From positions 62,001-126,000 of the forward strand of contig NZ_JALJRZ010000008.1 in the NCBI RefSeq assembly GCF_024519435.1: a DNA stretch of 64,000 nt. The letters run 5' to 3'. Below the pieces are notes generated by a model. It searched no databases, was not told the DNA's origin, and saw nothing but the letters and a program-made list of their open reading frames with translations. The translations under genes and the position numbers were made by a program. The number at the start of each line of letters is the position of its first letter. Within the stretch, counting starts at the first letter, position 1. Shown here in pieces: positions 105-63,303 of this stretch. Source of the stretch: Terrabacter sp. Ter38. Lineage in GTDB: Bacteria; Actinomycetota; Actinomycetes; Actinomycetales; Dermatophilaceae.

Positions 105-1522
105 CGCGAGACCGCCTCTCCGGAGGTCGTGGGGACGGGTGTGGTGGTGCTCGCGCCGCCCTCGGAGGCGAGACGGTCGCCGAGCCAGCGCAGTCCGCTG
201 TCGCGGCTCGACTTGAGCAGGACGACGTCGCCGGCGCGGACGCGCGTGGCGAGCAGGTCGTGGGCAGCGTCGGTGTCGGGCACCCACTCCGAGCCGGGGA
301 CGGCCTCGGCGAGCGGACGGGCGCCCTCGCCGACGGCCACGACGTGCTCGAAACCGCGGGACGCGGCATACGCCCCGACGGCTGCGTGCTCGGCATCGCT
401 GTCGGGCCCGAGCTCGAGCATGCCCCCGAGGACGGCCCAGCGCTCCCCCGTCACGTGCATGGCCGCGACGGCGTCGAGGGCGGCACGCATGGAGTCGGGG
501 TTCGCGTTGTAGGCGTCGTTGACGACGACCACGCCGTCGGGCCGGTCGGTGATCTCCATCCGCCAGCGGCTCACGGCCTCGGCAGCGCCGAGCCCGGCCA
601 CGACCTGGTCGAGCGACAGCCCGAGCTCGAGTGCCGCCGCGGCGACGGCGAGAGAGTTGCCGACGTGGTGGGCACCGCTCTGGCGGAGGGAGACCCGGGC
701 CGAGCCCTGCGGGCTGACGAGGGTGTATGCCGCCCTCCCGCGCTCGTCGAGGGTCACCTCCTCGGCACGCACGTTCGCCTCGGGCGACAGGCCGACGAGC
801 TGGACCCGGGAGGCGACGCCGGAGGCCATGGCGGCCACGACGGTGTCGTCGGCGTTGAGGATCGACAGCCCCTCGGCGGGGACCGCCCGGGGCAGCTCCG
901 ACTTGGCGTGGGCGATGTTCTCGCGCGACCCGAACTCGCCGATGTGGGCGGTGCCGACGTTGAGGACGATGGCGACCTGCGGCGGTGCGATGCGCGTGAG
1001 GTAGTCGATGTGGCCGATGCCACGGGCGCCCATCTCGGCGACGAGGAAGCGGGTGGTCGGGGTGACACGGCACACCGTGAGCGGCACGCCGATCTCGCCG
1101 TTGAGCGAGTTGACCGGCGCGACCGTCTCGGCCACCGACGACAGCACGGACGCGAGGAGGTCCTTGACGCTGGTCTTGCCCGACGACCCGGTGATGCCCA
1201 CGATCCGCAGCTCGGGAGCACGGTCGACGACTCCGCGGGCGATCCGGCCGAAGGCCGTCTGGACGTCGTCGACGACGACGCACGGCACACCGTCGACCGG
1301 ACGCTCGGTGAGGGCTGCGACGGCTCCTGCCGAGACGGCTGCAGCGACGAAGTCGTGCCCGTCGGCGGTCTCGCCGACCCGCGCGACGAAGAGGCTCCCC
1401 GGCCCGCAGTCACGGGAGTCCGTGGTCACGGGGCCGTCGACGACGACGGCCTCAGGCGTGTCGGTGCCGTGGATGGTGCCTCCGGTGAGGTCGCGGATCT
1501 CGTTGAGGGACAAGGCGATCAC
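101..1522 (-). CDS. murF: MurF, UDP-MurNAc-tripeptide D-Ala-D-Ala ligase
   Basis: Cytoplasmic ligase that adds D-Ala-D-Ala to UDP-MurNAc-tripeptide using ATP, the last soluble step before MraY. The protein has 473 aa, normal for MurF. The Mur-ligase P-loop GITGSSGKTS is at about residues 109-118. An N-terminal Mur substrate domain and the central motif NDAYNANPDSM (about residue 330), typical of MurF, are present. It starts with GTG at 1522, overlapping the murE stop (GTGA), and its stop overlaps the mraY start. Expression is presumably as part of the mraZ-led operon. Confidence 0.97.
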   Translation of the reverse strand: MIALSLNEIRDLTGGTIHGTDTPEAVVVDGPVTTDSRDCGPGSLFVARVGETADGHDFVAAAVSAGAVAALTERPVDGVPCVVVDDVQTAFGRIARGVVDRAPELRIVGITGSSGKTSVKDLLASVLSSVAETVAPVNSLNGEIGVPLTVCRVTPTTRFLVAEMGARGIGHIDYLTRIAPPQVAIVLNVGTAHIGEFGSRENIAHAKSELPRAVPAEGLSILNADDTVVAAMASGVASRVQLVGLSPEANVRAEEVTLDERGRAAYTLVSPQGSARVSLRQSGAHHVGNSLAVAAAALELGLSLDQVVAGLGAAEAVSRWRMEITDRPDGVVVVNDAYNANPDSMRAALDAVAAMHVTGERWAVLGGMLELGPDSDAEHAAVGAYAASRGFEHVVAVGEGARPLAEAVPGSEWVPDTDAAHDLLATRVRAGDVVLLKSSRDSGLRWLGDRLASEGGASTTTPVPTTSGEAVSR

Positions 1523-3090
1523 GACGTCACCCCCGACGAGCTGACGGCTGCGAGGGCGGCGCGCACGGCGTCGCGGTCGTCGAACGGGTGCTTCACTCCG
1601 TGGATCTCCTGACCCTTCTCGTGTCCCTTGCCGAGCACCACGACGGTGTCGACTGGGCGGTCCTTCCCCATGCCCACGACCGCGAGGGCGATGGCCTCGG
1701 AGATCGCGCTCGAGCGCGTGCCGCCGTCGATGATCTCGGATGCTCGCGCCGAACCGGCACCGACCTCCTCGCGCGCCCCGGCGATGACGGCCGCACGGAT
1801 CTCGGCGGGGTCCTCGGACCGGGGGTTGTCGTCGGTGACGACGACGACGTCGGCGCGGCGGGCAGCGGCAGCCCCCATGGCCGGTCGCTTGCCCCGGTCC
1901 CGGTCTCCCCCGGCACCGAGGACGGCGATGAGGCGACCGCCGGTCGAGGCACGCAGCGCTGCGAGGGCGGCGTCGACGGCGTCGGGTGTGTGCGCGAAGT
2001 CGACGACGCAGCGGGGCCCTTCAGGGCCGCCGGGCGCGACGACCTCCATGCGGCCCGGCACGTCCGGGGCCACGGACATGGCGGCCTCGACCTCGCTCGG
2101 CTCGAGGCCGATGCGCAGCAGTGCGAGGGCTGCGAGCGCCGTGTTGGCGACGTTGAAGTGACCGGGCAGGTGCGAGACGAGGCGCAGGGCGCGGCCCGTG
2201 GACCGCTCCCGCAGGGTGAACCTGCCGTCGTCGCCCTCCTCGGCGCCCCAGTCGGCGTCACCGGCGCCCTCGGTCGTCGTCGCGAGGGTCGTCATCGGCA
2301 CGGTGGCCTCGACCGCGAGGCGCCGCCCCCAGGCGTCGTCGACGCAGACGACGGCGGCCCGGGAGCGCTGCGGTGTGAAGAGGGAGGCCTTGGCCCCGAA
2401 GTAGTCGTCCATCGAGGCGTGGAAGTCGAGGTGGTCCTGCGAGAGGTTCGTGAAGAGCGCGACGTCGTAGACGACTCCGTCGACCCGGTGCAGCTCGAGG
2501 GCGTGGCTCGAGACCTCCATGATGCAGGCGTCGATGCCCCGCTCCCGCATGAGCCCGAGGAGGGCGTGCAGGTCGGTCGCCTCGGGCGTCGTGCGCACCG
2601 ACTCGAAGAGCTCGTCACCGATGCGCGTCTCGACCGTGCCGATGAGCCCTGTCCGCTGACCGTGCGCCCGCAGCGCCGACTCGACGAGGTAGGCCGTCGT
2701 CGTCTTGCCGTTGGTGCCCGTGACCCCGAGCATCGTCAGCGACTCGGAGGGCCGGCCGTAGACCTGCGCCGCGACGTCTCCGAGCACGCTCCGGGGCTCC
2801 TGCGTGACGACGACGGGCACTGCGAGATCCGTCAGCTCGGCAAGGCCGGCCGTGTCGGTGAGGACCGCGACGGCTCCGGCGGCCACGGCGTCGGCGGCGA
2901 AGCGCGCGCCGTGCACGTTGAAGCCCGGGAGGGCCGCGTACAGGTCGCCCGGGAGCACGGCTCGGCTGTCGAGCGTGACCCCTGTCACGACGGCGTCGAC
3001 GGCTCCGGAAGCAACGTCGGCCCGGATCCAGGGCGTCAGGTCGCAGAGGCGTACACCCGATGTTGCGGGTCGAAGGGGGGAAGGTGACAC
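1519..3090 (-). CDS. murE: MurE, UDP-MurNAc-L-Ala-D-Glu:meso-diaminopimelate ligase
   Basis: Cytoplasmic Mur ligase that adds the third amino acid of the peptidoglycan stem peptide. The protein has 523 aa. The P-loop GVTGTNGKTTT is at about residues 122-132. The substrate-selecting motif DNPRSEDP (about residue 420) has the Asn-Pro-Arg form known from meso-diaminopimelate enzymes, so the stem peptide probably contains meso-DAP rather than lysine. The start is GTG at 3090, 11 nt after the ftsI stop. Its stop overlaps the murF start. Confidence 0.97.
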   Translation of the reverse strand: MSPSPLRPATSGVRLCDLTPWIRADVASGAVDAVVTGVTLDSRAVLPGDLYAALPGFNVHGARFAADAVAAGAVAVLTDTAGLAELTDLAVPVVVTQEPRSVLGDVAAQVYGRPSESLTMLGVTGTNGKTTTAYLVESALRAHGQRTGLIGTVETRIGDELFESVRTTPEATDLHALLGLMRERGIDACIMEVSSHALELHRVDGVVYDVALFTNLSQDHLDFHASMDDYFGAKASLFTPQRSRAAVVCVDDAWGRRLAVEATVPMTTLATTTEGAGDADWGAEEGDDGRFTLRERSTGRALRLVSHLPGHFNVANTALAALALLRIGLEPSEVEAAMSVAPDVPGRMEVVAPGGPEGPRCVVDFAHTPDAVDAALAALRASTGGRLIAVLGAGGDRDRGKRPAMGAAAARRADVVVVTDDNPRSEDPAEIRAAVIAGAREEVGAGSARASEIIDGGTRSSAISEAIALAVVGMGKDRPVDTVVVLGKGHEKGQEIHGVKHPFDDRDAVRAALAAVSSSGVTS

Positions 3091-3101
3091 GTCATCCCAA
3101 C

Positions 3102-6075: not shown

Positions 6076-7082
6076 CGGGTGGGTCCCTTCCTGGTCCTGC
6101 TGGCTGAGGTGTGCGTGGAGGTGTCGCGCACGCGCTCTGCGACGCGAAGTCGGGCCGAGGCGGCCCGCGGGTTCGTGGTGACCTCGTCGTCGCCGGGCGC
6201 CTCGGCGCCGCGGGTGACGAGGGAGAGGTATGCCGCATGCTCGGCGAGCTCGACCGGCAGGCCTGCCGGGGTGCTGGAGGTGGCGCCGGCCGCGAAGGCC
6301 CGCTTCGTCGCCCGGTCCTCGAGCGAGTGGTACGAGAGGACCGCGATCCGGCCGCCGACCGCGAGGACGTCGATCGCCTCGTCGATGGCGCGGCGCCAGA
6401 CCTCGAGCTCGTCGTTGACCTCGATCCGCAGGGCCTGGAAGGTGCGCTTGGCCGGGTGGCCGCTCTGTCGCTGCGAGGCGGCCGGGATGACGCGACGCAG
6501 CATGTCGACGAGGCGACCGGACGAGGTGTAGGGCTCGATCGCGCGGTCCTGCACGACGGCCTTGGCGATCTTGCGCGCGTAGCGCTCCTCGCCGTAGTCG
6601 CGCAGGATCCGCGTGAGGTCATCGGCCGAGTAGGTGTTGAGCACGTCGGCGGCGGTCTGCCCCGTCGACTGGTCCATCCGCATGTCGAGCGGCGCGTCGA
6701 CGCGGTAGGCGAAGCCACGGTCGGCCTCGTCGAGCTGGAGCGAGCTGACGCCGAGGTCGAAGAGGATGCCGTCGACCGCGGGCACGTCGAGGTCGCCGAC
6801 GACGTCCTTGATGTCGTCGTAGACGGCGTGCACCGGGCGGAAGCGGTCGCCGAACCGGGCGAGTCGCTCCCCCGCGAGAGCCAGGGCCTCACGGTCGCGG
6901 TCGATGCCGACCACGGTGCAGTCGCGGAAGCGCTCGAGGACGCCCTCGGCGTGGCCACCCATGCCGAGCGTGCCGTCGATGTGCACCGCCCCCGGCCGCT
7001 CCAGCGCGGGGGCGAGCAGCTCGAGGATCCGGTCGCGCATGACGGGGACGTGACGCTCCTGCGCCTGTCCTCGATCGCTCAT
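6072..7082 (-). CDS. rsmH: RsmH (MraW), 16S rRNA m4C1402 methyltransferase
   Basis: SAM-dependent methyltransferase that N4-methylates C1402 of 16S rRNA in the ribosomal P site. The 336-aa protein has the family N-terminus ([13 protein letters not shown]) and a glycine-rich SAM loop [14 protein letters not shown] at about residues 36-49. A further conserved motif is [11 protein letters not shown]. The start is ATG at 7082 with an AGAGGGA ribosome-binding site about 8 nt upstream. It is the first gene after the long mraZ leader gap, and its stop overlaps the ftsL-like start. Confidence 0.97.
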
Positions 7083-9460: not shown

Positions 9461-10705
9461 ATGCGCTCGCTGCGCAGTGTCCTGACGACGAGGGGTAGGG
9501 CCTTCATGGGCTCGGGCGCGGTCCTCGTCCTCGCCGGTGTCATCTTCGGGTTCCGCGACCTCACCCGCTTCGGGGTGCTCCTCGTCGCGCTCCCCCTCAT
9601 CTCCGCCGTCCTCGTGCGCACCCGCAAGACGCGGATGCGCATCGAGCGGCACAGCCACCCCGAGCGCATCAGCGTCGGCCAGGACGCACACGTCACGTTG
9701 TCGTTCGAGAACGTCTCGACGAACACGACGCCGATCTTCCTCGCCGAGGAGCGGCTCGACTACGTCCTCGGCGACCGGCCGCGCTTCGTCGTCGGCCGGA
9801 TCCCGCCGGGCCGCGTCCGCGCCATCGACTACGCCGTCCGCTCGCACCTGCGCGGACGCCACCACCTCGGGCCCCTCGGGGTCCAGGTGCAGGACCCGTT
9901 CGGCCTCGCCAACCGCAACGCGGTGCTCGAGGGCACCGCCGACCTCGTCGTGCTGCCGGCCGTGCACCCGCTGTCGTCGAACCGCCAGCCGAGCGCGGGC
10001 GTCGGCTCCGAGGGCGAACAGGCTCATCTCATCGCGCTGCACGGCGAGGACGACGTCACGATCCGCGAGTACCGCGACGGCGACGACCTGCGCCGCATCC
10101 ACTGGCCCGCGACCGCACGCACCGGCGACCTCATGGTGCGCCAGGAGGACCGCCCCGCGCAGCGTCGGGCCGTCGTGCTCATCGACCCGCGGCCCTCCGC
10201 GCACGGTGGCACGGGAGTGAGCAGCTCGTTCGAGTGGGCGATCACCGCGGCTGCGTCCGTCGCCGTGCACCTGTGCGACTCGGGGTATGCCGTGCACCTC
10301 GTCTGCGCCGAGACGGTCGAGACCTCCCGCGCAGCCGAGACCATGACGCCCGAGGAGATCCTCGACGTCCTCGCCGTGGCGACACCGCGCGACGACACGG
10401 GCGAGGACGAGATCCTGCGCGCCGGCCAGGCCCTCGCCGCCGCCGGCGGCTTCCTCGTGGCCCTCGTCGGACCGTCAGGACGCGACATCACGTCCCGGCT
10501 TGCGAGCCTGCGCCAGCCGGGCACCACCGGCCTGGCGCTCGTCCTCGACGCCCGCAGCTTCGGCACGACCGATGCCGAGGAGGCCGGCCCGCACGTCGAC
10601 ACGCTGCGCCTCGCGGGGTGGCGTGCCGTCTCGGTCCAGCGCGACGAGGACGTCGCGCACGTCTGGGCCGTCCTGACGGCCGCCACCGTGGGAGGCAGCC
10701 GATGA
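9461..10705 (+). CDS. DUF58 (VWA-like) membrane protein
   Basis: A 414-aa protein with two membrane helices near the N-terminus (about residues 16-52) and a DUF58 domain whose signature EYRDGDDLRRIHWPATART lies near residue 200. DUF58 proteins usually accompany MoxR ATPases. Their biochemical role is not established, but a von Willebrand-type binding domain is suspected. It starts 16 nt after moxR with GGGAGCAGG upstream, and its stop overlaps the next start (ATGA), so the three proteins are probably made in coordinated amounts. Confidence 0.9.
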   Translation: MRSLRSVLTTRGRAFMGSGAVLVLAGVIFGFRDLTRFGVLLVALPLISAVLVRTRKTRMRIERHSHPERISVGQDAHVTLSFENVSTNTTPIFLAEERLDYVLGDRPRFVVGRIPPGRVRAIDYAVRSHLRGRHHLGPLGVQVQDPFGLANRNAVLEGTADLVVLPAVHPLSSNRQPSAGVGSEGEQAHLIALHGEDDVTIREYRDGDDLRRIHWPATARTGDLMVRQEDRPAQRRAVVLIDPRPSAHGGTGVSSSFEWAITAAASVAVHLCDSGYAVHLVCAETVETSRAAETMTPEEILDVLAVATPRDDTGEDEILRAGQALAAAGGFLVALVGPSGRDITSRLASLRQPGTTGLALVLDARSFGTTDAEEAGPHVDTLRLAGWRAVSVQRDEDVAHVWAVLTAATVGGSR

Positions 10706-13011
10706 CCCGCCGTCGCTGGAGGATCACCCTCCTGGGCGCCCTCGCCACCCTGGCCGCGGTCTACCCCATCACGAGCCTCTTCGTCGAGACCACCTGGCTG
10801 CCTCAGGCGGCCTTCGTCGTCGCCCTCGTCGCCGGCCTCGGCCTCGTCGCCCGTGGCCTCACCCGCTCGCGCGGACTCGTCGTCATGGTCCAGGTGCTCG
10901 TGACGGCCTACGTCATCCTCGCCCGCTACACCGGTGAGTCGTTCACCCTGTTCGTGCCGACACCCGCGACGCTCGAAGCGGCCAACAGTCTTGGTCTGCA
11001 GGCCCTCGAGACGATCAACCGCTACTCGGCCCCCGCGCCGATCAACGACGGCATCACGTTCTGTCTCATCATCGCCGTCGCTCTCGTCGCCATCGCGGTC
11101 GACGCCATGGCCGCCACCTGGCGGAGCCCGGCTGCCGCGGGACTGCCACTGCTGACGGCATACCTCATCACGGCGGCCAACGGCGATGCCGCGCTCGCGC
11201 TGCGCTTCTTCGTCGTGCCGGTCGTGCTCTGGCTCGTCATGCTGCACACGACCGCCCGGGCCCAGTTCGGGCGCTGGGGCACGGCCAGCGCGGCCGACGA
11301 GAGCGAGATCGACGAGGCGGCCCACGACCGCGACGCCCTGCGCTCGTTCACGGCGGGGGCGCTCAAGCTCGGCGCCGTCGGCGTGGTCGTCGCCCTCCTC
11401 GTGCCGGCCGTCATCCCGCACTTCCCACCGCGCTACCTCACCGAGGGGCTCGGCAGGTCGGGCGGCGGCGCCGGCGAGGGGTCCGTCGGGTTCAACGACA
11501 CGCTCGACCTCTCACGCAGCCTGAACAACCAGGACCAGTCGCCCGTCCTGACGTACACGACGACGGCCTTCACGCGGTCTCCACTGCGAGTGCTCGCGAC
11601 CTCGTACTACTCCCGCGGGCAGTGGAGCGTCGCCGGAGCCACCGGCGATCGACCCGACAACCCGTCTCCCCTGCCGCCGCTGGACAAGCGACGCGACTAC
11701 GTCATCACTGTCACGGACAACACCCTCGCCGCGCCCCGCATCGCGGCGCCCTACCCCGTCGTCGCCGTCGCGATGGAGGGCACGCCGTGGAGCATCGACC
11801 CCGTCACGCGCGACGTGCGCGTCGACCGCGCGGTGAGCAGCTACCGGGTGACGTATGCCGATCTCGCGCCCTCCCCGCCGGAGCTGCGCGAGTCGGGAGC
11901 CCCGGACTCGCCGGACATCACCGACGACGACCTCAGCATCCCGGACCGGTCGCGCGACCTGATCCAGCAGTGGTCCGACCAGGTGACCCGCGGTGCGGAC
12001 AACCCGCTCGACAAGGCGATCGCGATCCAGGACCACCTGCGCGACCCGAGCCGCTACACCTACTCCCTCGACCTCGGAGAGCAGCTGCGCGACAGCCAAG
12101 GGCGCCTGCTCGAGCCGATCCAGAACTTCTACCAGACCCGTCGCGGCTACTGCGTCCAGTTCGCGACGGCGATGATCATGCTCGCTCGGGCCCAGGGGAT
12201 CCCGGCCCGCATGGCGATCGGCTTCCTGCCCGGCCAGCTCTCGGGCGAGCGCTACATCGTCCGCGCCAGTGACGCCCACGCGTGGCCCGAGCTCTACTTC
12301 CAGGGCTACGGCTGGCTGCGCTTCGAGCCGACCCCGGGTGCCCGGGCCGGCTCGCCGCCACCGTATGCCGTCCTCGGTGCGGGCTCGGGCCCGACGGGCG
12401 GCGGGCGCGCGGTGAGCGAGACGAACACCGCGAGCGGCACGGCCTCGGCCACGAGCTCGACCACGGCGGCGACGGCGGCCCCCGTGCAGACGGAGCAGAC
12501 GTTCCTCGACTCCGTCGGGCACGTGTTCAGCGTGCGCAACGTCGTGCTGGCCCTCGCGCTGGTGCTCGGCCTGCTCGCGGCGTTCGCGATGCCGATCACC
12601 GCGTGGCTGCTCCGGCTGCGTCGCCGACGCGCCGCCGTGACCCAGCAGGATCTCATCGAGGCCGAGTGGGACGACCTCACCTCGCACTTCGGCGACCTCG
12701 GGCTCAGTGCGCCCGAGGGCGTCACCCTGCGCCAGCTGCGCGAGCGCTACGTCGTCGACGGCCACCTCGACGAGGAGAACACCACCGCCATGCGACGGGT
12801 CACGGCGACTCTCGAGAAGTCCCGTTACGACCGGCCCGAGCGCACGACGCCGCAGGAGGCCTTCCGGCTGCACCACGACATCCGGTCGATCCGGCGTCAG
12901 GTCGGCCGCACCCGGGCGTGGCAGGCCCGGGCACGGTCCTTCTTCTGGCCCGAGGCGGGCGTCTCGTTCTGGCGATCCCTCCCGGACCGCCTGCTCCCCC
13001 GGCGCCGCTGA
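10702..13011 (+). CDS. TgpA-like transglutaminase-domain membrane protein
   Basis: A 769-aa protein. About seven membrane helices in the first 250 residues (DUF3488-type) precede an extracytoplasmic transglutaminase/papain-fold domain. That domain has a candidate Cys in GYCVQFATAMIML (near residue 484) and a His in SDAHAWPELYF (near 524). One more helix (about 613-635) leads to a cytoplasmic DUF4129-like tail. The fold suggests amidase, peptidase or crosslinking activity on envelope material. The substrate is unknown. The start is the ATG at 10702 that overlaps the DUF58 stop; the longer open frame upstream is a shadow of DUF58. Confidence 0.9.
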   Translation: MTRRRWRITLLGALATLAAVYPITSLFVETTWLPQAAFVVALVAGLGLVARGLTRSRGLVVMVQVLVTAYVILARYTGESFTLFVPTPATLEAANSLGLQALETINRYSAPAPINDGITFCLIIAVALVAIAVDAMAATWRSPAAAGLPLLTAYLITAANGDAALALRFFVVPVVLWLVMLHTTARAQFGRWGTASAADESEIDEAAHDRDALRSFTAGALKLGAVGVVVALLVPAVIPHFPPRYLTEGLGRSGGGAGEGSVGFNDTLDLSRSLNNQDQSPVLTYTTTAFTRSPLRVLATSYYSRGQWSVAGATGDRPDNPSPLPPLDKRRDYVITVTDNTLAAPRIAAPYPVVAVAMEGTPWSIDPVTRDVRVDRAVSSYRVTYADLAPSPPELRESGAPDSPDITDDDLSIPDRSRDLIQQWSDQVTRGADNPLDKAIAIQDHLRDPSRYTYSLDLGEQLRDSQGRLLEPIQNFYQTRRGYCVQFATAMIMLARAQGIPARMAIGFLPGQLSGERYIVRASDAHAWPELYFQGYGWLRFEPTPGARAGSPPPYAVLGAGSGPTGGGRAVSETNTASGTASATSSTTAATAAPVQTEQTFLDSVGHVFSVRNVVLALALVLGLLAAFAMPITAWLLRLRRRRAAVTQQDLIEAEWDDLTSHFGDLGLSAPEGVTLRQLRERYVVDGHLDEENTTAMRRVTATLEKSRYDRPERTTPQEAFRLHHDIRSIRRQVGRTRAWQARARSFFWPEAGVSFWRSLPDRLLPRRR

Positions 13012-13220
13012 GCCCGGCACACGGCATACGCAGGAACGGGGACACCGCAACGCGAAGGGAGCCCACGGCGACGGTCCTGCGGCGCTACGACGTCCCCGCA
13101 CAGCTCGGGACACGTTTGTGGGCTTGCCCGGATTCACCGTGCCCGAAGTGGCCGTGCGGTCTCAGCGGTCAGGACGGCGAGCCGGCTGCCCTCGGCATCA
13201 GGACCGCACGCGCACCCACG

Positions 13221-14636: not shown

Positions 14637-14669
14637 CGTCCCTCCTCAGGTGAAACGTCGAATGGAAGG

Positions 14670-14702
14670 ACGCTAGGCAGTCGAGCGTTCGCGAACCGTT
14701 CG
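14670..14702 (-). promoter_or_regulatory. SARP-type direct repeats and -10 box of the FAD oxidase promoter
   Basis: On the minus strand, heptamers CGAACGG (14702-14696) and CGAACGC (14691-14685) are direct repeats with an 11-bp period (7-bp units, 4-bp gap). A TAGCGT -10 box (14675-14670) follows after 9 nt. SARP activators classically bind heptamer repeats of this period about 8 bp before the -10. The same bases contain the 10-bp palindrome GTTCGCGAAC (14687-14696). The transcript would start about 27 nt before the oxidase ATG. Confidence 0.6.
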
Positions 14703-14706
14703 GCGC

Positions 14707-17769: not shown

Positions 17770-17935
17770 CCGCGCTCCTTCCGACGTCGGGCACCGCTCT
17801 GATCCAGTCTGGCCCCGTCGGGCGGGAGCGCCATGGTGAGCGACGAATGTGCCCTTCGTCCGGTGGTGTCCGCGCGTCCCTGCCTGGCGGCACGGCCACG
17901 TGCGCACAGCGCCCGGAAACCACCCCGGGAACGAC

Positions 17936-17972
17936 GAAGTGGGGTCCCTCCGGCCAGAGAGGACCCCACTTC
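17936..17972 (-). terminator. Hairpin terminator after rpoD
   Basis: GAAGTGGGGTCC ... GGACCCCACTTC: a perfect 12-bp stem with a 13-nt loop, 31 nt beyond the rpoD stop. No clear U-run follows, as is usual for actinobacterial terminators. Confidence 0.75.
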
Positions 17973-18003
17973 ACCCTGCCCACGTGACAGGAACGCCTAT
18001 CTG

Positions 18004-48418: not shown

Positions 48419-48459
48419 GACGTATGCCGTCCGGCCACCTCGGCCGGGCGGCATACGTC
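48419..48459. terminator. Long hairpin built from inverted GTATGCCG copies
   Basis: GACGTATGCCGTCCGGCC - ACCTC - GGCCGGGCGGCATACGTC: an 18-bp stem with a single G-T type mismatch, between the convergent subtilase and DoxX genes. Each arm carries one copy of the dispersed octamer. Confidence 0.8.
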
Positions 48460-48598: not shown

Positions 48599-49186
48599 TC
48601 ACCGCAGGAGGCCGTTACCGACGTGGCGGCCCCACCACTTGCCAAGGCCCCAGGTGTCCCCGGCGAGCGTCGTGGCGAGAACCGCGACGCCCAGTGCCTC
48701 GATCCAGTGGCTGTCGATGAGCGGGTTGGTGTAGACGCCGGTGGTGCCGAGGGGGAACTCGGCGAGGTACATCAGCGCCAGGAGGAGTGCAGCGGTCCAG
48801 GCGGCGATCTTGAGGCCGGCGCCGGCGAGGAGGGCGATACCGATGCCGAGGAGGCCGGCCATGAACAGCCAGTCGGCCCACGGGCCGGCGATGTTGTTGA
48901 AGAAGGAGGCGAACGGGCCCTCGGCGTGCTTCATGAAGCCCTGGGCGGGCGTGCCGCCGTGGATCCACGCCTTGGCCGACGGGGTCATGTAGCCGAGCCC
49001 GAACAGCTTGTCGAGGAAGGGCCAGAGGAAGGTGAAGCCGAGCACGATGCGCAGACCAGCGAGGAACTTGCGGGCCACGGCCGAGCGGACCACCTCCTCC
49101 TGGAAGGTGACGACGCCCTGGGTGGGGTCGTGCGTGGTGACCGGCGCACTACCTTCGGTGTGCGTGTCGCGCGGGATGGTGCCCAT
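48599..49186 (-). CDS. DoxX-family membrane protein
   Basis: A 195-aa protein with four membrane helices of DoxX/DoxD type: FLAGLRIVLGFTFLWPFLDK, WLFMAGLLGIGIALLAGAG, KIAAWTAALLLALMYLAEF and WIEALGVAVLATTLAG. The first helix ends in the family-like LDKLFGLGY. DoxX proteins are linked to thiosulfate:quinone oxidoreductase or oxidative-stress membrane complexes; no partner gene is adjacent. The ATG at 49186 is preceded by GGAG at 9 nt; a TTG three codons upstream is possible. An inverted repeat upstream may be its operator. Confidence 0.85.
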   Translation of the reverse strand: MGTIPRDTHTEGSAPVTTHDPTQGVVTFQEEVVRSAVARKFLAGLRIVLGFTFLWPFLDKLFGLGYMTPSAKAWIHGGTPAQGFMKHAEGPFASFFNNIAGPWADWLFMAGLLGIGIALLAGAGLKIAAWTAALLLALMYLAEFPLGTTGVYTNPLIDSHWIEALGVAVLATTLAGDTWGLGKWWGRHVGNGLLR

Positions 49187-49361: not shown

Positions 49362-50583
49362 AGCGGATGAGGGTCGGGACCTCGAGCTCTCCTGGGGCGT
49401 CGGCGAGCTCGCGCACCAGCTCGGCGAGCGCGTCGAGCGAACGGCACACGGCGGCATACGACCCGTCGAGACGGATCGGACGGCAGAGGATCCGGGTGCC
49501 CGCGTTGCGGATGACGATCTCCGACTCCGGCGCGCGGTCGCTGTTGCAGTGGATGAGCAGGCCGGTCGGCAGACCCATCGCCGTGGTGTAGGCGACGAGC
49601 TCGAGGTAGTCCCGCGAGGCCATGTAGCCGTCGGCACCCATCGAGTACTTCGCGTCGCCGACGAGGACGACCTCGCTGCCGCGGCGCACGACGAGGTCGG
49701 GGGCCATCGTGACGGCCCGGCCCTCGTCGAGCCAGACGTCCTCGTCGCGCTCGATGCGCATCTCCGGGGCGAGGCGCAGGTCCAGCTCCTGGGCGATCCA
49801 GCGTTGGAAGAGGTCGTCCATGTCGACCATGAGGCTGTTGGCCTGCTGGTCACCGGCTTCGTGGCTCAACGACATCGCTTGCAGGACAAGGCGACTGAGC
49901 CGCATCGCGTCCTCGTAGTGCTCGTTGAGGCGTGTGATCGGCAGCGGTGCCGCGTGCTTCGTCGCCGGGGTGTCGGCCACGCCGTCGAATCGGCCGAGCA
50001 CGCGCAGGGCCTCTCGGCGGACGTGCGGCGCGAGCTGGGGCCACGACAGCATCGCCTGAAGCGTGCAGCGGAAGAGCTGGTTCTCGACGATGTCGGCCGT
50101 GAAGTCGTCGAAGCGGCACTGCGGCTCGGCGGCGCTCCACGGACGGCGCGCGAACTCCTCGACGAGCAGTCGGCCCCGGATGGTGCGCATCCGCTCCTCG
50201 CGCGGGACGTAGCCGTGCACGAGACCACGCATCGTCGATGAGTCGATGAGCCGGATCGCGAAGTAGGCGACGCCGTCGATGAGCTCGTCGGTGTCGCTCC
50301 ACGTCACGTGCTCGTGGTCGAACGCGTCGGGCGAGACGCCCGCGCCGAGCATCGCGAAGAAGTTCGTGACCGAGACCTTCGGCGTGACGCGCACGACGAG
50401 GCCGGGCACGGCGAGCGCGCCCACCCAGCTCGTCGCACCGATCGTGACGACGTCGGGGTCGGCGGTCGCGTGGATGACGAGCCGCTCCCCCGCTGCCGCG
50501 ACGAGAGCCGCTCGGGTCTCGCGGGACAGGCGGACCGGAGCCGAGCGTCCGTGCTCGGGGATCGGGGCCAGCTCGATGGTCAT
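49351..50583 (-). CDS. mcrC: McrC-like nuclease subunit of a type IV restriction system
   Basis: A 410-aa McrC-family protein. The N-terminal beta-rich domain carries VPGLVVRVTPKVSVTNFFAML. The C-terminal PD-(D/E)xK nuclease has MAPDLVV (Asp near 293) and VGDAKYS (near 306-312), followed by LELVAYTTAMG. McrC supplies DNA cleavage to the McrB NTP-driven motor; known systems cut DNA with modified bases. It begins 19 nt after mcrB stops, in the usual mcrB-mcrC order. Confidence 0.9.
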   Translation of the reverse strand: MTIELAPIPEHGRSAPVRLSRETRAALVAAAGERLVIHATADPDVVTIGATSWVGALAVPGLVVRVTPKVSVTNFFAMLGAGVSPDAFDHEHVTWSDTDELIDGVAYFAIRLIDSSTMRGLVHGYVPREERMRTIRGRLLVEEFARRPWSAAEPQCRFDDFTADIVENQLFRCTLQAMLSWPQLAPHVRREALRVLGRFDGVADTPATKHAAPLPITRLNEHYEDAMRLSRLVLQAMSLSHEAGDQQANSLMVDMDDLFQRWIAQELDLRLAPEMRIERDEDVWLDEGRAVTMAPDLVVRRGSEVVLVGDAKYSMGADGYMASRDYLELVAYTTAMGLPTGLLIHCNSDRAPESEIVIRNAGTRILCRPIRLDGSYAAVCRSLDALAELVRELADAPGELEVPTLIRSRR

Positions 50584-50602: not shown

Positions 50603-53419
50603 TCACGGCCTCGTCAGGTCGAACTGGCCGTAGCGGGCTCGGACGTTCTCCCAGCGGAACTGGGCCAGCTCGTGCTCGCGCCCGTAGAGCTGGTCCTCGA
50701 TGAACGGGTAGACGTTGTAGTCCCAGATGCGGCGCAGGGTCGCCTCGTCGCCGTCGAGCCCGGGGCGCATGAAGTAGCTGTGGCCGATCTGCAGGTGCGG
50801 GCCGCGCAGGGCCCGGCGCAGGTCCTCGTTGACGCGGTCGACGAGCTCGGCCACCCACACCGGCCCGTCGTGGACCTCGAGCCACCGGCGCAGCAGGCCC
50901 TCCATCGGCCCGTCGTGCGGCATGAACGGCACGAAGTCGAAGCGCCGGCGCAGGGCCGCGTCGACGAGCGCGATGGACCGGTCGGCGGTGTTCATGGTGC
51001 CGATGAAGTAGAGGTTGGGCGGCAGCTCGAAGCCCTCGTCGGGGCGGTAGCTCGTCTTGACCGAGTGCGAGCGGTACTCGAGCAGGAAGAGCAGCTCGCC
51101 GAAGACGCGCGGGAGGTTCGCGCGGTTGATCTCGTCGATGATCATGATGTGCGGCGTCAGCGGGTCGGCCTCGGCCGCCTCGGCGAGGAGGGCGAGCGGA
51201 CCCTTGCGCAGCTCGTAGACCATCTGGCCCTGGTGGTCGATCTGCGGCCGGAAGCCCTCGAAGAAGTCCTCGTAGCTGCTGCTCGGGTGGAACTGGACGA
51301 TGTCGCGCTTGGCCGGGTCGGGCTGCAGGGCCTGCGCGAACCGCTGGGCGAGGTAGGTCTTGCCTGTGCCGGGAGGCCCGTAGAAGATGACCTGCTTCTT
51401 CTCCTCGAGCAGGCCCTGGATCTCGCGGAGGAAGTCCTCCTCGATGAGCAGCTCCGCGGCGGCCTCGCCGAGGGCGTCGTGGTCGGGCATGAGCGCCTTG
51501 TCGGAGCGGCGCATGAGCCAGTAGGCGAGCTGCGCCTGACCCCAGGGGTCGTCCGGCAGCAGCGCGTCGAGCGTCTGCTTGAGCAGGGCGTTGGTCTCGA
51601 CGTGCGTGCGGCCGCGGGACTTGCCCTCGGTCCAGCGCGCCGGTCCGCCGAGGCGGCCGAGCATCGCGATCTTGCCGGAGTCCCCGCCCAGGGCGAAGAG
51701 CGGGAGCCAGTGCTCGGGGTGGGCGATGGCGAAGAGCTTGAGCACGACGCTCTCGCCGAAGCCCTGCACCGGGACGTCGTCGGAGCCGAGGACGCGGTTG
51801 ATCCGCTCCTCGTCACGCCCCTCGCCCCAGAGCAGGTCGCGCACCATGACACGCAGCTCGTCGATACCGGCGGCGTCCAGGGCGTTGATGCTGCTGATGA
51901 GGACGGACTGCGCGCCGATGTCGCCGTAGCCGCGCGTCGACACGATCCGCTTGAAGGTCGGCAGATCGAAGGCCTCGAGACCCTCACGCGACAGGCAGGC
52001 GGCGAAGACGCGGCGCTGCTCCTGGTGCCAGGCGTCGCGCTCGCTCGGGTAGGGCCGCTCGGACTTGAAGATCTCGACCTCGCTGTCGAGGTCGACGATG
52101 GAGGCGAGCTCGAGGCTGGGGTCGTCGAGGGGGCCGCGCTGGCTGGACGTCATGAAGCGCAGCAGCGGCGTCAGCGCCCGTGCGGTCGCGATGACGTCGT
52201 CGGCGAAGTCGGCGCGTCCGACCGCCTCGTCGCCCTTCCACCAACGGCCGACGAAGGCCTCGCCGCCGGGGTACTCGCGCCCGACGGGCTCGAGCCGGTC
52301 GGTGCGGCCGTCCTCGTGGACGCGCAGGAAGCTGAGGCCGCGCGGGAGGTGCTCCTGGACGATGGTGCCGACCTCGCGGTGCTGCTGGTCGCTCTCGCCC
52401 TCCCAGCCGCCGTGCAGTCCGAACGCGACGCCCGACGGGGTGACCCAGAGGCGGAAGCCGGGGGCGCCGGCGCCTCCGACGAGGATCCACGCGGCATACA
52501 GGTCGGAGCGGTAGGCGGCGTCCTCGCCCGTGTGCTGCTGCAACGCGAGGGTCGGGGCCTCGAGGTAGAGGCCCGTCTCGGCGGAGAGGCGGTCGATGAG
52601 GCTGTCGCTGATGTGGTCGGCCTCGCCGCGCAGCTGGCGCGCGAGATCGGCCGCACGCTCCTCTCGGCGGCTGTCGCCGTAGCCGGTGGACGGGCGGAAG
52701 TCCGCCGCGATCTCGGCCGCCTCAACACAGACGTCGAGCACCTTGGGCGCTATCCCGACGAACGCCTCGGTCTCCTTGAGGTACCAGAGGATGCGGGCGG
52801 CGTACTTCGGGTCCTCGGGCCGCAGGGCTGCGCAGAGGTCGGCGAAGGCGACGTAGCGCTCCGCGTGGCTCAGGCCGCGCTCGAGCCAGCCGAGCCGCTG
52901 GAGCATGTGCGGGGCGTTCTCCCACATGAGCGGCCACTCGCCGCCGTCGTCGGTGGACCAGAACAGCGAGAGCACGTATGCCGTGTGGCCCGGTCCGGGG
53001 GCGCGCTGTCCGCGCGAGCCACCGCGGGCGAGGAAGGCCTCCATGGCCTGGAGCTTGTCGCCGGCGTCCTGCGGGGAGGCCGGGGTCTGGAGGGTGAGCT
53101 TGAGCAGGCCGACGACCTCGGCGTACTCCTCCTCGGAGCGGCGCATGAGCGAGGCGAGCCACGGGCCGCCGATGGGGCCGAAGCCGACGTAGGGACCGTC
53201 CTTGCGGGTCCACTGGTTCATCGCCTCCTTGAAGGCGACGAGGTCGCTGGAGGCCACGAGGTCGGCGAGGATCTCGCGCAGCTCGCCGTTGCGGGCAGCC
53301 CGTTCGGAGTCGAGCTCGGCGAAGAGGGCCTGGGCGTCCTTGTCCGCCTCGGCAGCGCGCTCGATGAGGCCGTACTTGGCGCGCCAACGCTTGACGTCGA
53401 CGGTGTCGGTGCGAGACAT
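50603..53419 (-). CDS. mcrB: McrB-like AAA+ motor subunit with unusually large N-terminal region
   Basis: A 938-aa protein. The C-terminal ~270 residues are an McrB-type AAA+ domain with Walker A YGPPGTGKTYLAQ (near 680-692), Walker B IIDEINRANLPRVFGELL (near 758-775) and the diagnostic GTMNTADRSIALVDAALRRRF (near 806). E. coli McrB (about 460 aa) has a ~160-residue recognition domain; here about 650 residues precede the motor. I recognise no standard 5mC-reader domain in them, so the target may differ. The start is ATG at 53419 with AAGGGAG about 5 nt upstream. No methyltransferase is nearby, as expected for type IV. Confidence 0.9.
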   Translation of the reverse strand: MSRTDTVDVKRWRAKYGLIERAAEADKDAQALFAELDSERAARNGELREILADLVASSDLVAFKEAMNQWTRKDGPYVGFGPIGGPWLASLMRRSEEEYAEVVGLLKLTLQTPASPQDAGDKLQAMEAFLARGGSRGQRAPGPGHTAYVLSLFWSTDDGGEWPLMWENAPHMLQRLGWLERGLSHAERYVAFADLCAALRPEDPKYAARILWYLKETEAFVGIAPKVLDVCVEAAEIAADFRPSTGYGDSRREERAADLARQLRGEADHISDSLIDRLSAETGLYLEAPTLALQQHTGEDAAYRSDLYAAWILVGGAGAPGFRLWVTPSGVAFGLHGGWEGESDQQHREVGTIVQEHLPRGLSFLRVHEDGRTDRLEPVGREYPGGEAFVGRWWKGDEAVGRADFADDVIATARALTPLLRFMTSSQRGPLDDPSLELASIVDLDSEVEIFKSERPYPSERDAWHQEQRRVFAACLSREGLEAFDLPTFKRIVSTRGYGDIGAQSVLISSINALDAAGIDELRVMVRDLLWGEGRDEERINRVLGSDDVPVQGFGESVVLKLFAIAHPEHWLPLFALGGDSGKIAMLGRLGGPARWTEGKSRGRTHVETNALLKQTLDALLPDDPWGQAQLAYWLMRRSDKALMPDHDALGEAAAELLIEEDFLREIQGLLEEKKQVIFYGPPGTGKTYLAQRFAQALQPDPAKRDIVQFHPSSSYEDFFEGFRPQIDHQGQMVYELRKGPLALLAEAAEADPLTPHIMIIDEINRANLPRVFGELLFLLEYRSHSVKTSYRPDEGFELPPNLYFIGTMNTADRSIALVDAALRRRFDFVPFMPHDGPMEGLLRRWLEVHDGPVWVAELVDRVNEDLRRALRGPHLQIGHSYFMRPGLDGDEATLRRIWDYNVYPFIEDQLYGREHELAQFRWENVRARYGQFDLTRP

Positions 53420-53769: not shown

Positions 53770-54399
53770 ATGACCGCCGCCGCACGCCCGCACCGACACC
53801 GCCCGCTCCTTGCGTATGCCGTCGTCCCCGTCGCGCTCGCTGTCCTGGGTGCGTGCACGGGCAGCGACCCTGGTCCTGCGGTGACGACTCCCTCGTCGAG
53901 TTCGGCCGTCACCAGCTCCCCCACCCCCACGGCCACCACCACGTCCGCCTCGAGCCCCACGGCGACGGTCGACCCCGTGATCGCCAAGATCCCCGCCGCC
54001 GCCCGCGCGAATGACAAATCGGGCGGAGTGGCCTTCAGTCGCTTCTACTTCGGCACCCTCAACAGTGCTTTCAAAACGGGCGACAGTGAACTGCTTGCCG
54101 CGCTTGCCTCACCACGCTGTCCGACTTGCATGGCGTTCGTAGACGGGGTCGAGCAACTGAACGAACAGGAACGAAGGTACGGCGGGGACCTGGTGAGTGT
54201 GACGAGCGCAAGCGCGCTCAACTTCAGCACCAACAACAAGCAGGTGTTGTTGGAAATTGATCAGAAGTCCGTGCCTGTGTTGAACGAGGTGAACGACCAT
54301 GTCGGCACGACACCCGCAGGAAAAGCCTCCTTCATCGCCACGCTCGGATTTAAAGCGGGACGGTGGAGCATCGAGCGGCTGCAAAAGGTCGCATCGTGA
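53770..54399 (+). CDS. DUF6318-type lipoprotein
   Basis: A 209-aa lipoprotein. The signal peptide ends in lipobox VLGAC (Cys near 32), followed by a Ser/Thr/Pro-rich linker (33-70). The globular domain begins IPAAARANDKSGGVAFSRF and carries a CPTC pair (near 118). The pattern fits DUF6318, a family of unknown function seen in Micrococcales. The start is ATG at 53770 (GGGGACG upstream). From about position 54010 the gene has clearly lower GC and more A/T-ending codons than its first third, suggesting a recombined allele. It overlaps the next start by one base. Confidence 0.8.
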   Translation: MTAAARPHRHRPLLAYAVVPVALAVLGACTGSDPGPAVTTPSSSSAVTSSPTPTATTTSASSPTATVDPVIAKIPAAARANDKSGGVAFSRFYFGTLNSAFKTGDSELLAALASPRCPTCMAFVDGVEQLNEQERRYGGDLVSVTSASALNFSTNNKQVLLEIDQKSVPVLNEVNDHVGTTPAGKASFIATLGFKAGRWSIERLQKVAS

Positions 54400-58805: not shown

Positions 58806-61184
58806 GTGAACGTGCAGGTGAAGGTGCCGTCCATCGAACGTCGCATCGCAGAGGAGCTCGGCGTCCGCGATGGACAGGTGACCGCGGCCGTGGGCCTGCT
58901 CGACGGCGGCTCGACCGTCCCCTTCGTGGCGCGCTACCGCAAGGAGGTGACGGGCGGCCTCGACGACACCCAGCTGCGCACGCTCGAGGAGCGTCTCGGC
59001 TACCTCCGCGAGCTCGAGGAGCGCCGCGCTGCCGTGCTCGCCTCCGTCGAGGAGCAGGGCAAGCTCGACGAGACCCTGCGCGCGCAGATCCTCGCCGCGG
59101 AGACCAAGGCGCGCCTCGAGGACATCTATCTCCCGTTCAAGCCGAAGCGCCGCACCAAGGCGCAGATCGCCCGCGAGGCAGGACTCGAGCCCCTCGCCGA
59201 GCTGCTGCTCGGCGACCCCGGCACCGATCCCGCCACCGCTGCAACGCGTTTCGTCGACGCCGAGCGTGAGGTCGCCGACGCCGCGGCCGCCCTCGACGGC
59301 GCCCGCGCCATCCTCGTCGAGCGCTTCGCCGAGGATGCAGACCTGATCGGTGACCTGCGCGAGCGCGTCTGGAAGCAGGGCCACCTCGGCTCGCGCGTAC
59401 GCTCCGGCAAGGAGGAGGAGGGCGCGAAGTTCTCCGACTACTTCGACTTCACCGAGCCCCTCGCCAAGCTCCCCTCGCACCGCATCCTCGCCCTCTTCCG
59501 CGGCGAGAAGGAGGACGTTCTCTCGCTCGAGATCAACCCCGAGGACCCAGCGGCCGAGCAGCAGCCCGGCCCGACGGCATACGAACGCGCCATTGCTCGG
59601 CGGTTCGGCATCGAGAACACCGGGCGCCCCGCCGACCAGTGGCTCGCCGACACCGTCCGTTGGGCCTGGCGCACGAAGATCCTCGTCCACCTCGGCATCG
59701 ACGCCCGGATGCAGCTGCGCCGGGCCGCCGAGGAGGAGGCCGTACGCGTGTTCGCGGCCAACCTGCGCGACCTGCTGCTCGCCGCTCCCGCCGGAGCGCG
59801 CGCGACCATGGGCCTCGACCCGGGCTTCCGCACGGGCGTCAAGGTCGCCGTCGTCGACGGCACCGGCCGGGTCGTCGCGACTGAGGTCATCTACCCGCAC
59901 GTCCCACAGCACCAGTGGGACCGCTCGCTCGCGACCCTCGCACGGCTCGCCGAGGAGCACTCGGTCGACCTCATCGCCATCGGCAACGGCACCGCGTCGC
60001 GCGAGACCGACCGCCTCGCCGGCGACCTCATCAAGGCACACCCCGAGCTGAAGCTGACGTCGGCCGTCGTCTCCGAGGCCGGCGCCTCGGTCTACTCCGC
60101 GTCGGCGTTCGCGTCGCAGGAGCTGCCCGGCATGGACGTCTCGCTGCGCGGCGCCGTCTCGATCGCCCGCCGCCTGCAGGACCCGCTCGCCGAGCTCGTC
60201 AAGATCGACCCGAAGTCGATCGGCGTCGGTCAGTACCAGCACGACATCAGCCAGACGGCACTCTCGCGCTCGCTCGACGCGGTCGTCGAGGACTGCGTCA
60301 ACGCCGTCGGCGTCGACGTCAACACGGCGTCGGCTCCCCTGCTCACCCGCGTCTCGGGCATCACCCCCGGTCTCGCCGAGAGCATCGTCGCGCACCGCGA
60401 CGCGACTGGCCCGTTCCGCACGCGCAAGGCCCTCAAGGACGTGCCGCGCCTCGGGCCGAAGGCGTTCGAGCAGGCGGCCGGCTTCCTCCGGATCCCAGGA
60501 GGGGACGACCCGCTGGATGCGTCGGCCGTTCACCCCGAGGCCTATCCCGTCGTCCGGCGCATGCTCGAGTCGACCGGGCAGAAGCTGACCTCCCTCATCG
60601 GCAACACCGTTGCGCTGCAGTCGATCCGGCCCGCCGACTACGTCGACGACAGCTTCGGCCTGCCGACCGTCACCGACATCATCAGCGAGCTCGACAAGCC
60701 CGGGCGCGACCCGCGACCGACCTTCAAGACGGCGACCTTCAAGGACGGCGTCGAGGAGATCAAGCACCTCAAGCCGGGGATGACGCTCGAGGGCGTCGTG
60801 ACGAACGTCGCGGCGTTCGGTGCGTTCATCGACATCGGCGTCCACCAGGACGGCCTGGCCCACGTCTCGGCGCTCTCCAGGAGCTTCGTGCGCGACCCGC
60901 ACGACGTCGTGAAGTCCGGCGACGTCGTCATGGTCAAGGTCCTCGAGGTCGACGTGCCCCGCAAGCGGATCTCGCTGACCCTGCGCCTCGACGACGAGGT
61001 GACCCCCGGCGCCCCGAAGGAGCGAACGGGTCAGGGGCAGGGAGGCCAGCAGCGCGGTGGTCAGGGCCGCGGCGGCCAGGGCCGTGGTCAGAGCCAGATG
61101 GGCCACGGCAACCGCCCCCGGAAAGAGGCTCCTGCCGACAGCGCCATGGCCGACGCCCTGCGCCGCGCCGGTTTCACCGGCTGA
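58806..61184 (+). CDS. tex: Tex-like S1 RNA-binding protein
   Basis: A 792-aa protein with the full Tex layout: helical N-terminus ([27 protein letters not shown]), a YqgF/RNase H-like domain around [21 protein letters not shown] (near 337), and tandem helix-hairpin-helix motifs ([25 protein letters not shown] near 538). The S1 domain [24 protein letters not shown] is near 655-725, followed by a Gly/Gln/Arg-rich tail. Tex binds nucleic acid and affects transcription; its exact role varies among species. The start is GTG at 58806 with AAGGAG 10 nt upstream. Confidence 0.95.
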
Positions 61185-62217: not shown

Positions 62218-63141
62218 TCAGCGGACGACCATGACGGGGCAGGCCGCGTCGTGGATGGCGCGGTGGCTGACCGACCCGAGCAGCATGCCCGCGAACCCGC
62301 CGTGGCCCCGCGAGCCGACGACGATCATCCCTGCCGTCGCGCCCAGGTCGGCGAGCGACTGGCCCGGGTCTCCGTAGAGCACCTCCGTCGTGACGATGAC
62401 CTTCGGGTGCCGCGCCCGCACACGCTCGGCCGCCCGCAGCACCGACTGCTCGGCGTTGTCGCGGATGGCGTGCGTCTCCTCCGTCCCGCCCTTGGCGGTC
62501 TCGACGTACGTCCACGCCTCCATCGACAGCGAGTGCGCGACGCGCACGATGTGGAGCACGGCACCCTCGCGCTCGGCGACCTCGACGGCCGTCTCGACGG
62601 CCCGCATCGCGGCGTCCGAGTCGTCGATGCCGACGACGACGTCGTGCCCGCGCCCGGGACGGGGTGGCATCGGCACGTCGTCGGAGGTCTTGCCCTCCGG
62701 CCCGCGCACGACGACGACGGGGCAGTGTGCGTGCGCCGCGACGGCATACGAGGTCGAGCCGAGCAGCCCGGCCAGGATGCGTCCGCGCCCACGGCTGCCG
62801 ACGACGACGAGGTCGGCGTCCTTCGACATGTCCACGAGCTGCGCCGCGGGGCTGCCGAGCCAGTACTGCGTCGTCACCTGGGAGGCGTCGAGCGTGGCGC
62901 CGGCGCGGACCGCACCTTCGTCGACGATCGCCTTGGCGGCGTGCTCGAGCGAGGGCTCGATCTCGGAGAGGTCCATCGCCGGGAACGCGGGGGTGGCGGC
63001 CAGGTTGACGCTGTGCACCAGGGTCAGGTGCTTGCCCTGCTGGCGAGCCGTCTCCGCGGCCCACTCGAGCGCGAGCTGTGATGATGCCGAACCGTCGTAG
63101 GCGACGACGATCCCGTTCGCCGTCCGCACCTGGCCGTTCAT
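62218..63141 (-). CDS. Universal stress protein, two UspA domains
   Basis: A 307-aa tandem UspA protein. Each half ends with the ATP-binding signature: VVGSRGRGRILAGLLGS (near 122) and VVGSRGHGGFAGMLLGS (near 275), pattern G-x2-G-x9-G-S. Tandem Usp proteins of this length are typical of actinobacteria and are often induced by hypoxia or stasis. The start is ATG at 63141 with AAGGGGAG about 5 nt upstream. No promoter motif was recognised. Confidence 0.9.
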   Translation of the reverse strand: MNGQVRTANGIVVAYDGSASSQLALEWAAETARQQGKHLTLVHSVNLAATPAFPAMDLSEIEPSLEHAAKAIVDEGAVRAGATLDASQVTTQYWLGSPAAQLVDMSKDADLVVVGSRGRGRILAGLLGSTSYAVAAHAHCPVVVVRGPEGKTSDDVPMPPRPGRGHDVVVGIDDSDAAMRAVETAVEVAEREGAVLHIVRVAHSLSMEAWTYVETAKGGTEETHAIRDNAEQSVLRAAERVRARHPKVIVTTEVLYGDPGQSLADLGATAGMIVVGSRGHGGFAGMLLGSVSHRAIHDAACPVMVVR

Positions 63142-63267
63142 GATGCTCCCCTTCTCTCGTTCGCCTGGCCGGGCGTCTGCTCCGTCCACCTCCATCGTCC
63201 CGCCGGCCCCGGGCTGCGCTGCTCCTTTGTGACCACTCAGACAGCGCCGGGGTCCCCGATGGCGTAT

Positions 63268-63303
63268 GCCGCCGGGCCGGGTCGCGAGACCCGGCCCGGC
63301 GGC
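63268..63303 (-). terminator. Strong hairpin terminator of the 3' subtilase gene
   Basis: GCCGCCGGGCCGGGTC - GCGA - GACCCGGCCCGGCGGC, a perfect 16-bp stem, 12 nt after the subtilase stop. Its left foot overlaps a GTATGCCG octamer (63264-63271). Confidence 0.8.

Follow-up and report, generated by a model that had tools for sequence, protein, structure and literature searches.

Uptake words, short sequences that mark self DNA for uptake in natural transformation, are known from only two families, the Neisseriaceae and the Pasteurellaceae, according to the part of a 2025 paper drawn on here (PMC12616744). The uptake signal sequence (USS) of the Pasteurellaceae is described in that part as a very frequent short word, with two types in the family. 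In the Neisseriaceae, as outlined in sections of PMC3630211, the DNA uptake sequence (DUS) occurs in thousands of copies within and between genes and forms inverted pairs in terminator-like hairpins. The same sections report that DUS dialects are separated by one or a few letter changes and track the phylogeny of the family, that one genome carries two dialects and that some genomes have no obvious DUS. This work concerns the octamer GTATGCCG of the actinobacterium Terrabacter sp. Ter38, in a window of 64,000 nucleotides (the whole stretch of DNA analyzed, C53:62001-126000 of the 4.83 Mb genome labelled G000). An initial annotation of the window had likened this octamer to the uptake or genome-tag sequences of Neisseria and the Pasteurellaceae. 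That proposal is supported by most hallmarks that can be computed, namely density, strand neutrality, synonymous cost, placement, conservation, family restriction, dialects and the presence of ComEA/ComEC and a Tad cluster. We regard it as quite probable that GTATGCCG acts as an uptake word for self-DNA recognition in natural transformation in the Dermatophilaceae/Intrasporangiaceae, independent of the words of Neisseria and Haemophilus. No report of an actinobacterial uptake word was found in the open-licence PMC literature, judged by title or start of the abstract and with subscription papers outside the scope; among the matches listed for the letters of the octamer in open-licence papers, none was on the subject by its title.

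The window has a G+C content of 0.7185. Of its 32 copies of GTATGCCG, 18 belong to the plus strand and 14 to the minus strand; the first starts at 364 and the last lies at 63264-63271. The recount matches the initial annotation exactly, and its claim that the word stands far above chance is borne out: 100 dinucleotide shuffles of the window gave a mean of 0.68 copies and a maximum of 4, and an order-3 Markov model predicts 1.4 and ranks GTATGCCG first among the over-represented 8-mers of the window. TATGCC is nearly confined to the octamer, as had also been noticed, with 32 of its 33 occurrences in the window inside it. Genes were predicted with a purpose-made codon-score gene finder instead of a curated annotation; 25 of the 32 copies are located inside predicted genes and seven outside.

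Genome-wide, GTATGCCG is present 2,069 times (1036 forward and 1033 reverse), against 210 (107 and 103) for the control, the same word read backwards. In a 458-kb sample of the genome, consisting of the window and a further 394 kb, it is the best 8-mer, with 214 copies against 9.8 expected from an order-3 model, an excess of about 20-fold. Higher orders come closer to the observed number (52, 154 and 209 copies for orders 4, 5 and 6, respectively), which is what speaks for an artefact of composition or codon usage. The initial annotation had held that a prediction of the count by an order-5 or order-6 model would count against its proposal, and taken literally the order-6 model does predict 209 of 214 copies. 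These models are circular, however, as they learn the word from itself: 214 of the 241 TATGCC in the sample lie within GTATGCCG. The codon-preserving shuffles that it had also proposed are decisive in our judgement. When synonymous codons were shuffled 200 times in 369 genes, with proteins and codon usage kept, 12.8 ± 3.4 copies were obtained on average and at most 26, whereas 148 are observed. Accordingly, the claim that the word is kept in genes at the cost of uncommon codons stands. The word holds 89 of the 169 TAT codons in predicted genes of the sample, and in the context xxG-Tyr-Ala-Gxx, TAT GCC (89) outnumbers TAC GCC (33), whereas overall TAC (2213) far outnumbers TAT (169). The shuffles already refute the artefact, whose probability we consider negligible, and the near absence of the word from six wordless genera discussed below speaks against it as well. 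The best one-letter neighbours listed for the genome are only about twofold enriched (56 vs 25.5 and 88 vs 48), and the flanks carry little information beyond the 8 bp, with a soft preference for C before and T or C after; a longer consensus was dismissed for this reason.

The copies are not evenly distributed over coding and non-coding DNA. In the 458-kb sample, GTATGCCG has a density of 1.07 per kb between genes and of 0.37 per kb in predicted genes, an almost threefold difference, and two frames hold 126 of the 148 genic copies (89 on the same strand as the gene and 37 antisense). Neighbouring pairs at most 120 bp apart are convergent and hairpin-like in 10 of 12 cases. In the whole of G000, with spacers of 8 to 38, convergent pairs number 32 and divergent ones 9, each against about 6.9 expected by chance. 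Summed over eight genomes of the genus (all nine except the incomplete G002), there are 309 convergent and 79 divergent pairs. The hairpin habit is thus strong in this genus, and it is variable in other word-bearing genera. Two hairpins of the window, both pointed out by the initial annotation, have the word in the stem or at its foot. A convergent pair (48422-48429 on the plus and 48449-48456 on the minus strand) makes up the hairpin at 48419-48459, flanked by two predicted genes that converge on it, 44420-48394 (+) and 48599-49186 (-); it folds with -41.8 kcal/mol (z -5.8 vs shuffles). At 63264-63303, outside predicted genes, the plus-strand copy 63264-63271 stands at the foot of a strong hairpin near 63268-63303 (-49.6 kcal/mol, z -5.1). 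Such hairpins presumably act as transcription terminators. Spacing more regular than random was considered and dismissed, with a coefficient of variation of 1.02 after merging of pairs.

A different arrangement is found in genome G023 (whole genome; loci L073, L074 and L179), where most of the listed convergent pairs are one stereotyped palindrome, GTATGCCGCTGAGC..GCTCAGCGGCATAC, and the divergent pairs (n=35) mostly measure 26 or 29 bases; here the word seems to be built into larger repeated units. This palindrome and two identical hairpins at C1:7161 and C1:12580 of G000 are what could be expected from a selfish dispersed repeat, similar to repetitive extragenic palindromes or miniature inverted-repeat transposable elements, that spread as a hairpin and then decayed to its best-conserved part. 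We give that origin very little credence: the majority of copies stand alone and their surroundings beyond the 8 bp hold little information, 148 of the 214 sampled copies are genic with 126 in two frames, and a transposed element would neither vanish beyond eight letters nor suit 148 coding positions.

The word is also conserved in place. Thirteen orthologous loci were aligned to the window, the eight closest being seven named records and one metagenome-assembled genome of the family. A 938-residue protein of the window has 94-99% identity (best segment) in eight of the 13 loci, most of them from Terrabacter, and 86-91% in the remaining five, which places the host among Terrabacter-like members of the Dermatophilaceae/Intrasporangiaceae. 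In the eight closest loci 77 of 84 GTATGCCG sites are intact, where control 8-mers of like composition predict about 43. Of the more distant loci, both Humibacillus loci keep 6 of 7 sites and Intrasporangium oryzae keeps 5 of 7; only 1 of 6 is left in each of I. flavum and I. calvum.

Conservation in place also speaks for a Chi-like recombination hotspot, a word read during end resection by an enzyme of the RecBCD, AddAB or AdnAB type and kept frequent by selection for repair; Chi words are, moreover, short, non-palindromic, over-represented and taxon-specific. Chi is usually strand-skewed with replication. GTATGCCG has no strand skew, neither genome-wide (1036:1033) nor in three contiguous stretches of 194, 124 and 60 kb (48:59, 34:27 and 8:12, the replication origin not being located). 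The roughly 20-fold order-3 excess held at synonymous cost, the almost threefold intergenic excess and the convergent hairpins are not known features of Chi either, and we judge a Chi-like role unlikely. A site of DNA modification, of biased repair or of a DNA-binding protein is the other functional candidate: a methyltransferase motif, a process resembling very-short-patch repair or a nucleoid or segregation protein would enrich the word. Modification specificities also shift by single letters between relatives, and, as the cyanobacterial word HIP1 illustrates, enrichment of a word need not come with a proven role in uptake. Restriction, however, normally depletes its sites, segregation words such as KOPS (the FtsK-orienting polar sequences) are strand-polar whereas GTATGCCG is not, and a mutational bias should not need eight exact letters when the best listed one-letter neighbours reach only about twofold enrichment. 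Nor would convergent hairpins be expected under this reading, which we hold to be decidedly improbable. Neither the Chi-like nor the modification reading predicts the hairpins, the intergenic excess or the strand balance.

To place the word in its family, a set of 36 genomes was used, nine of the genus and 27 of other genera. All nine genomes of the genus and 13 of the 27 other genera have more than about 220 copies of GTATGCCG per Mb; the remaining 14 genera have fewer than 90. In a survey of 394 genomes of the class, in which GTATGCCG alone was counted, five of the eight family members are rich (1,192-2,476 copies) and none of the 386 genomes of other families is. The highest count read outside the family, 386, comes from a genome of 7.5 Mb with a control count of 176. 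Within the class sample, GTATGCCG is confined to the Dermatophilaceae/Intrasporangiaceae. One genome of another family, G351, has 170 copies against 27 of the reversed word, with its family mates mostly at 10-60; this excess is possibly an unrelated or borrowed use.

Dialects were searched without a prior word in samples of 40-80 kb from each of the 27 other genera, taken from contig starts and Tad/ComEC loci and not from random places; for G014 and G010 the sample was 40 kb. Five of the 14 genera poor in GTATGCCG are rich in a one-letter variant instead: GGATGCCG in G024 and G034, GTACGCCG in G031 and, more weakly, in G032 (where the 7-mer GTACGCC is prominent), and GTATGCGG in G028 (19 vs 1.6 expected, from the sample only). 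Three of the 13 word-bearing genera, G011, G012 and G035, mix GTATGCCG with GTATGACG/GTATGGCG, and G020 combines it with the commoner GAATGCCG (35 vs 3.0, again from the sample only). Whole-genome variant counts, covering 28 genomes, support GGATGCCG, GTATGACG and GTACGCCG. GGATGCCG occurs 3816 times in G024 and 3949 times in G034, and 260-1336 times elsewhere, with G009 at 1336; GTATGACG occurs 1954, 1557, 834, 597, 347 and 344 times in G035, G011, G012, G019, G013 and G026, respectively, and 26 times in G000; GTACGCCG occurs 2216 times in G031, 1359 in G032, 752 in G027 and 601 in G000. No clear dialect was found in the samples of nine genera (G009, G010, G014, G016, G017, G018, G021, G022 and G027). 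Six of these wordless genera (G009, G014, G016, G017, G018 and G021) have about 5-20 copies of GTATGCCG per Mb compared to 428, and the other three, which have a lower G+C content, have 24-81. Among the nine, G009 does have a mild excess of GGATGCCG, and G027, sister of G032, one of GTACGCCG.

The dialects largely follow phylogeny. On a tree of ComEC and TadA from 35 genomes (without G014; G022 and G029 placed by TadA alone, G012 with a partial TadA), the dialect labels require 9 changes, compared to a mean of 15.9 for shuffled labels with none of 200 shuffles as low, a statistic that is favoured by the near-identical Terrabacter rows. The two GGATGCCG genera constitute one supported group (99) beside GTATGCCG genera.

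Some repeats encountered in the samples are separate from the word. In the wordless G018 (L050-L051) and G022 (L053-L054), palindromes are enriched in 40 kb, namely GGACGTCC (24 vs 3.5), CGGTACCG (12 vs 1.2) and ATCGCGAT (12 vs 1.4), in counts that cover both strands and so count each palindrome twice; in a larger dispersed count only GGACGTCC stays in the top six (11 vs 2.4). In G031:C1:1-40000 (L055-L056), a local long repeat resembling CAGTTCGACGGTCACGG, with about 27-37 copies of its 8- to 10-mers, tops the k-mer table and is unrelated to the word.

The initial annotation had suggested a check for com and pil competence genes. ComEC is present in 36 of 36 family genomes, as is the Tad ATPase family TIGR03819 (34 over the cut-off). 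All 35 scanned ComEC loci, from 33 genomes, contain ComEA, and 25 of 27 Tad loci contain both Flp and TadE, with Flp weak in G016 and G019; of the two loci without them, that of G032 ends at a contig edge and that of G012 has a partial ATPase alone. The ComEA, Flp and TadE labels were assigned from sequence and gene order. In Terrabacter sp. Ter38 itself, comEC and, immediately upstream of it, a helix-hairpin-helix protein, read as ComEA, lie at about 167-170 kb of C53, the contig of the window. A Tad cluster with TadA lies at C1:120055-124729; we take it to be CpaE-TadA-TadB-TadC-Flp-TadE, with all labels except TadA presumed from the usual gene order. A search for PilM (PilM_2), a component of type IVa pili, gave no match in 34 of the 36 family genomes, including G000 (ComP itself was not searched), and with PilM in only two genomes a type IVa pilus was dismissed as the apparatus. 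A second class of Tad ATPase (about 330 bits; C1:94804 in G000) was dismissed as a required, dedicated apparatus, because the word-bearing G011, G024, G034 and G035 show no such match. A third class, of about 240-260 bits (C3:109023 in G000), is present in most genomes searched. In the actinobacterium Micrococcus luteus, according to sections of PMC4322843, transformation requires comEC, and the apparatus includes Flp pili.

Taken together, we think it reasonably likely that the family possesses a third independent family-wide uptake language, an actinobacterial one, which comprises at least six genus dialects (GTATGCCG, GTATGACG/GTATGGCG, GAATGCCG, GGATGCCG, GTACGCCG and GTATGCGG) and is read by a sequence-specific receptor on the Tad/Flp pilus. 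Under the model put forward here, free double-stranded DNA would be bound at its word by a surface receptor, which is probably a minor Tad/Flp pilin or else a protein docked onto the pilus. The bound DNA would then be drawn in by the pilus or by ComEA, one strand would enter via ComEC, and homologous recombination would swap out the resident allele. Uptake would depend on the word and be carried by the Tad pilus. DNA with the word would be taken up more often, and copies would spread by biased recombination where they are cheap, i.e. in intergenic DNA, in terminator-like hairpins and at synonymous sites. As receptor specificity drifts, the word may change by one letter and give rise to genus dialects. 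Biased uptake of this kind predicts a word that gathers at cheap sites, keeps its positions, shows no strand preference, is absent from newly arrived DNA and shifts letter by letter. As to newly arrived DNA, a pSAM2-type integrative element at C5:1 to about 15.9 kb (L042), with RepSA, an FtsK-like protein and two tyrosine integrases, has no GTATGCCG in 15.9 kb where 6.8 are expected (P 0.001; one element, limits set by eye).

Several observations weigh against this explanation. The depletion in mobile DNA comes from the single element just described, with its limits set by eye. A stretch of 18.9 kb without the word at C53:34146-53026 (L034:14146 to L035:13026) holds apparently ordinary chromosomal genes, where 0.03 such gaps are expected. 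The convergent excess is weak or absent in some genera: over 20 genomes the pairs are 682 convergent to 359 divergent, with 75:75 in G015 and 15:27 in G012. A contiguous invariant core was not found among the dialects, which agree at positions 1, 3, 5 and 8 and vary at positions 2, 4, 6 and 7. The dialect of G032 is the weakest. The two GTACGCCG genera are unclustered on the tree (2 changes, which 500 of 500 shuffles also reach), nor are the three GTATGMCG genera one group (2 changes). The receptor was not found, and covariation of Flp/TadE with dialect, compared by eye only, gave nothing to report. Genera in which no word is detectable have ComEC, ComEA and the Tad cluster as well, so that the apparatus does not predict the word, and the presence of the machinery was dismissed as what decides which genera bear it. 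As the apparatus is common to these wordless genera, the specificity of the receptor is the natural candidate for that decision.

The copies in the window are as follows. A Mur ligase gene (101-1522) holds one at 364-371 (-) and one at 725-732 (+). They are followed by 6228-6235 and 10285-10292 (both +), 11156-11163 (-; transglutaminase/TgpA_N gene 10702-13011), 11853-11860 and 12363-12370 (both +), and 13022-13029 (-; outside predicted genes). After this copy there is a gap of 11.3 kb (13029-24375) with a sigma-70 gene inside, which is compatible with random spacing. Beyond the gap lie 24375-24382 (-), 25442-25449 (+; outside predicted genes), 25752-25759 (+), 26042-26049 (-) and 26758-26765 (+), then 29575-29582 (+; helicase gene 29524-33624), 31503-31510 (-), 31993-32000 (+), 34156-34163 (+), 35720-35727 (-; outside predicted genes), 36234-36241 (+) and 40160-40167 (+). 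Further copies are found at 41950-41957 (-; AAA/RNase_H_2 gene 40835-44209), 43705-43712 (-) and 44194-44201 (+) and, past the convergent pair, at 49452-49459 (-), 52492-52499 (-; AAA ATPase gene 50603-53419), 52976-52983 (+), 53814-53821 (+; outside predicted genes), 59575-59582 (-; Tex gene 58806-61184) and 62742-62749 (-), ahead of the copy at the foot of the second hairpin.

If uptake is confirmed, the word would be a third independent invention of a self-DNA tag, in a different phylum. Self-DNA recognition would then be a recurrent outcome of natural transformation and not peculiar to two proteobacterial families, and Tad pilins would be able to read DNA sequence. With its different type of pilus and its range of dialects across more than a dozen sequenced genera, such a case would offer a natural experiment on the co-evolution of receptor and word. 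This makes it testable whether such words evolved to restrict foreign DNA or are by-products of receptor bias, and would offer a route to the DNA receptor of actinobacterial competence.

Among known over-represented words, Chi and HIP1 resemble GTATGCCG in being short and in varying by lineage. Chi differs in being strand-skewed and tied to end resection, and HIP1 in being palindromic, with an unsettled function. The closest likeness in machinery is the transformation of M. luteus through a Flp/Tad pilus, in the same phylum, with comEA/comEC and tad clusters, the same kinds of genes as found here; the term uptake sequence has no occurrence in PMC4322843 or in PMC8467076. The USS is a 9-letter word of unrelated sequence that works with a type IV pilus and for which uptake bias has been measured. 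GTATGCCG differs from the DUS in being a GC-rich word of eight letters with an unrelated sequence, in belonging to another phylum with another envelope, and in the presence of a Tad/Flp cluster rather than a type IVa pilus, with no ComP-like receptor known. The DUS has the contiguous invariant inner core CTG and the USS has GCGG, whereas the GTATGCCG dialects have no contiguous core. Because word, phylum and pilus differ and such a core is lacking, GTATGCCG is not a member of the DUS by descent. Nevertheless, it resembles the DUS in its abundance, its genic and intergenic copies, its hairpin pairs, its dialects, its genomes with two dialects and its wordless family members.

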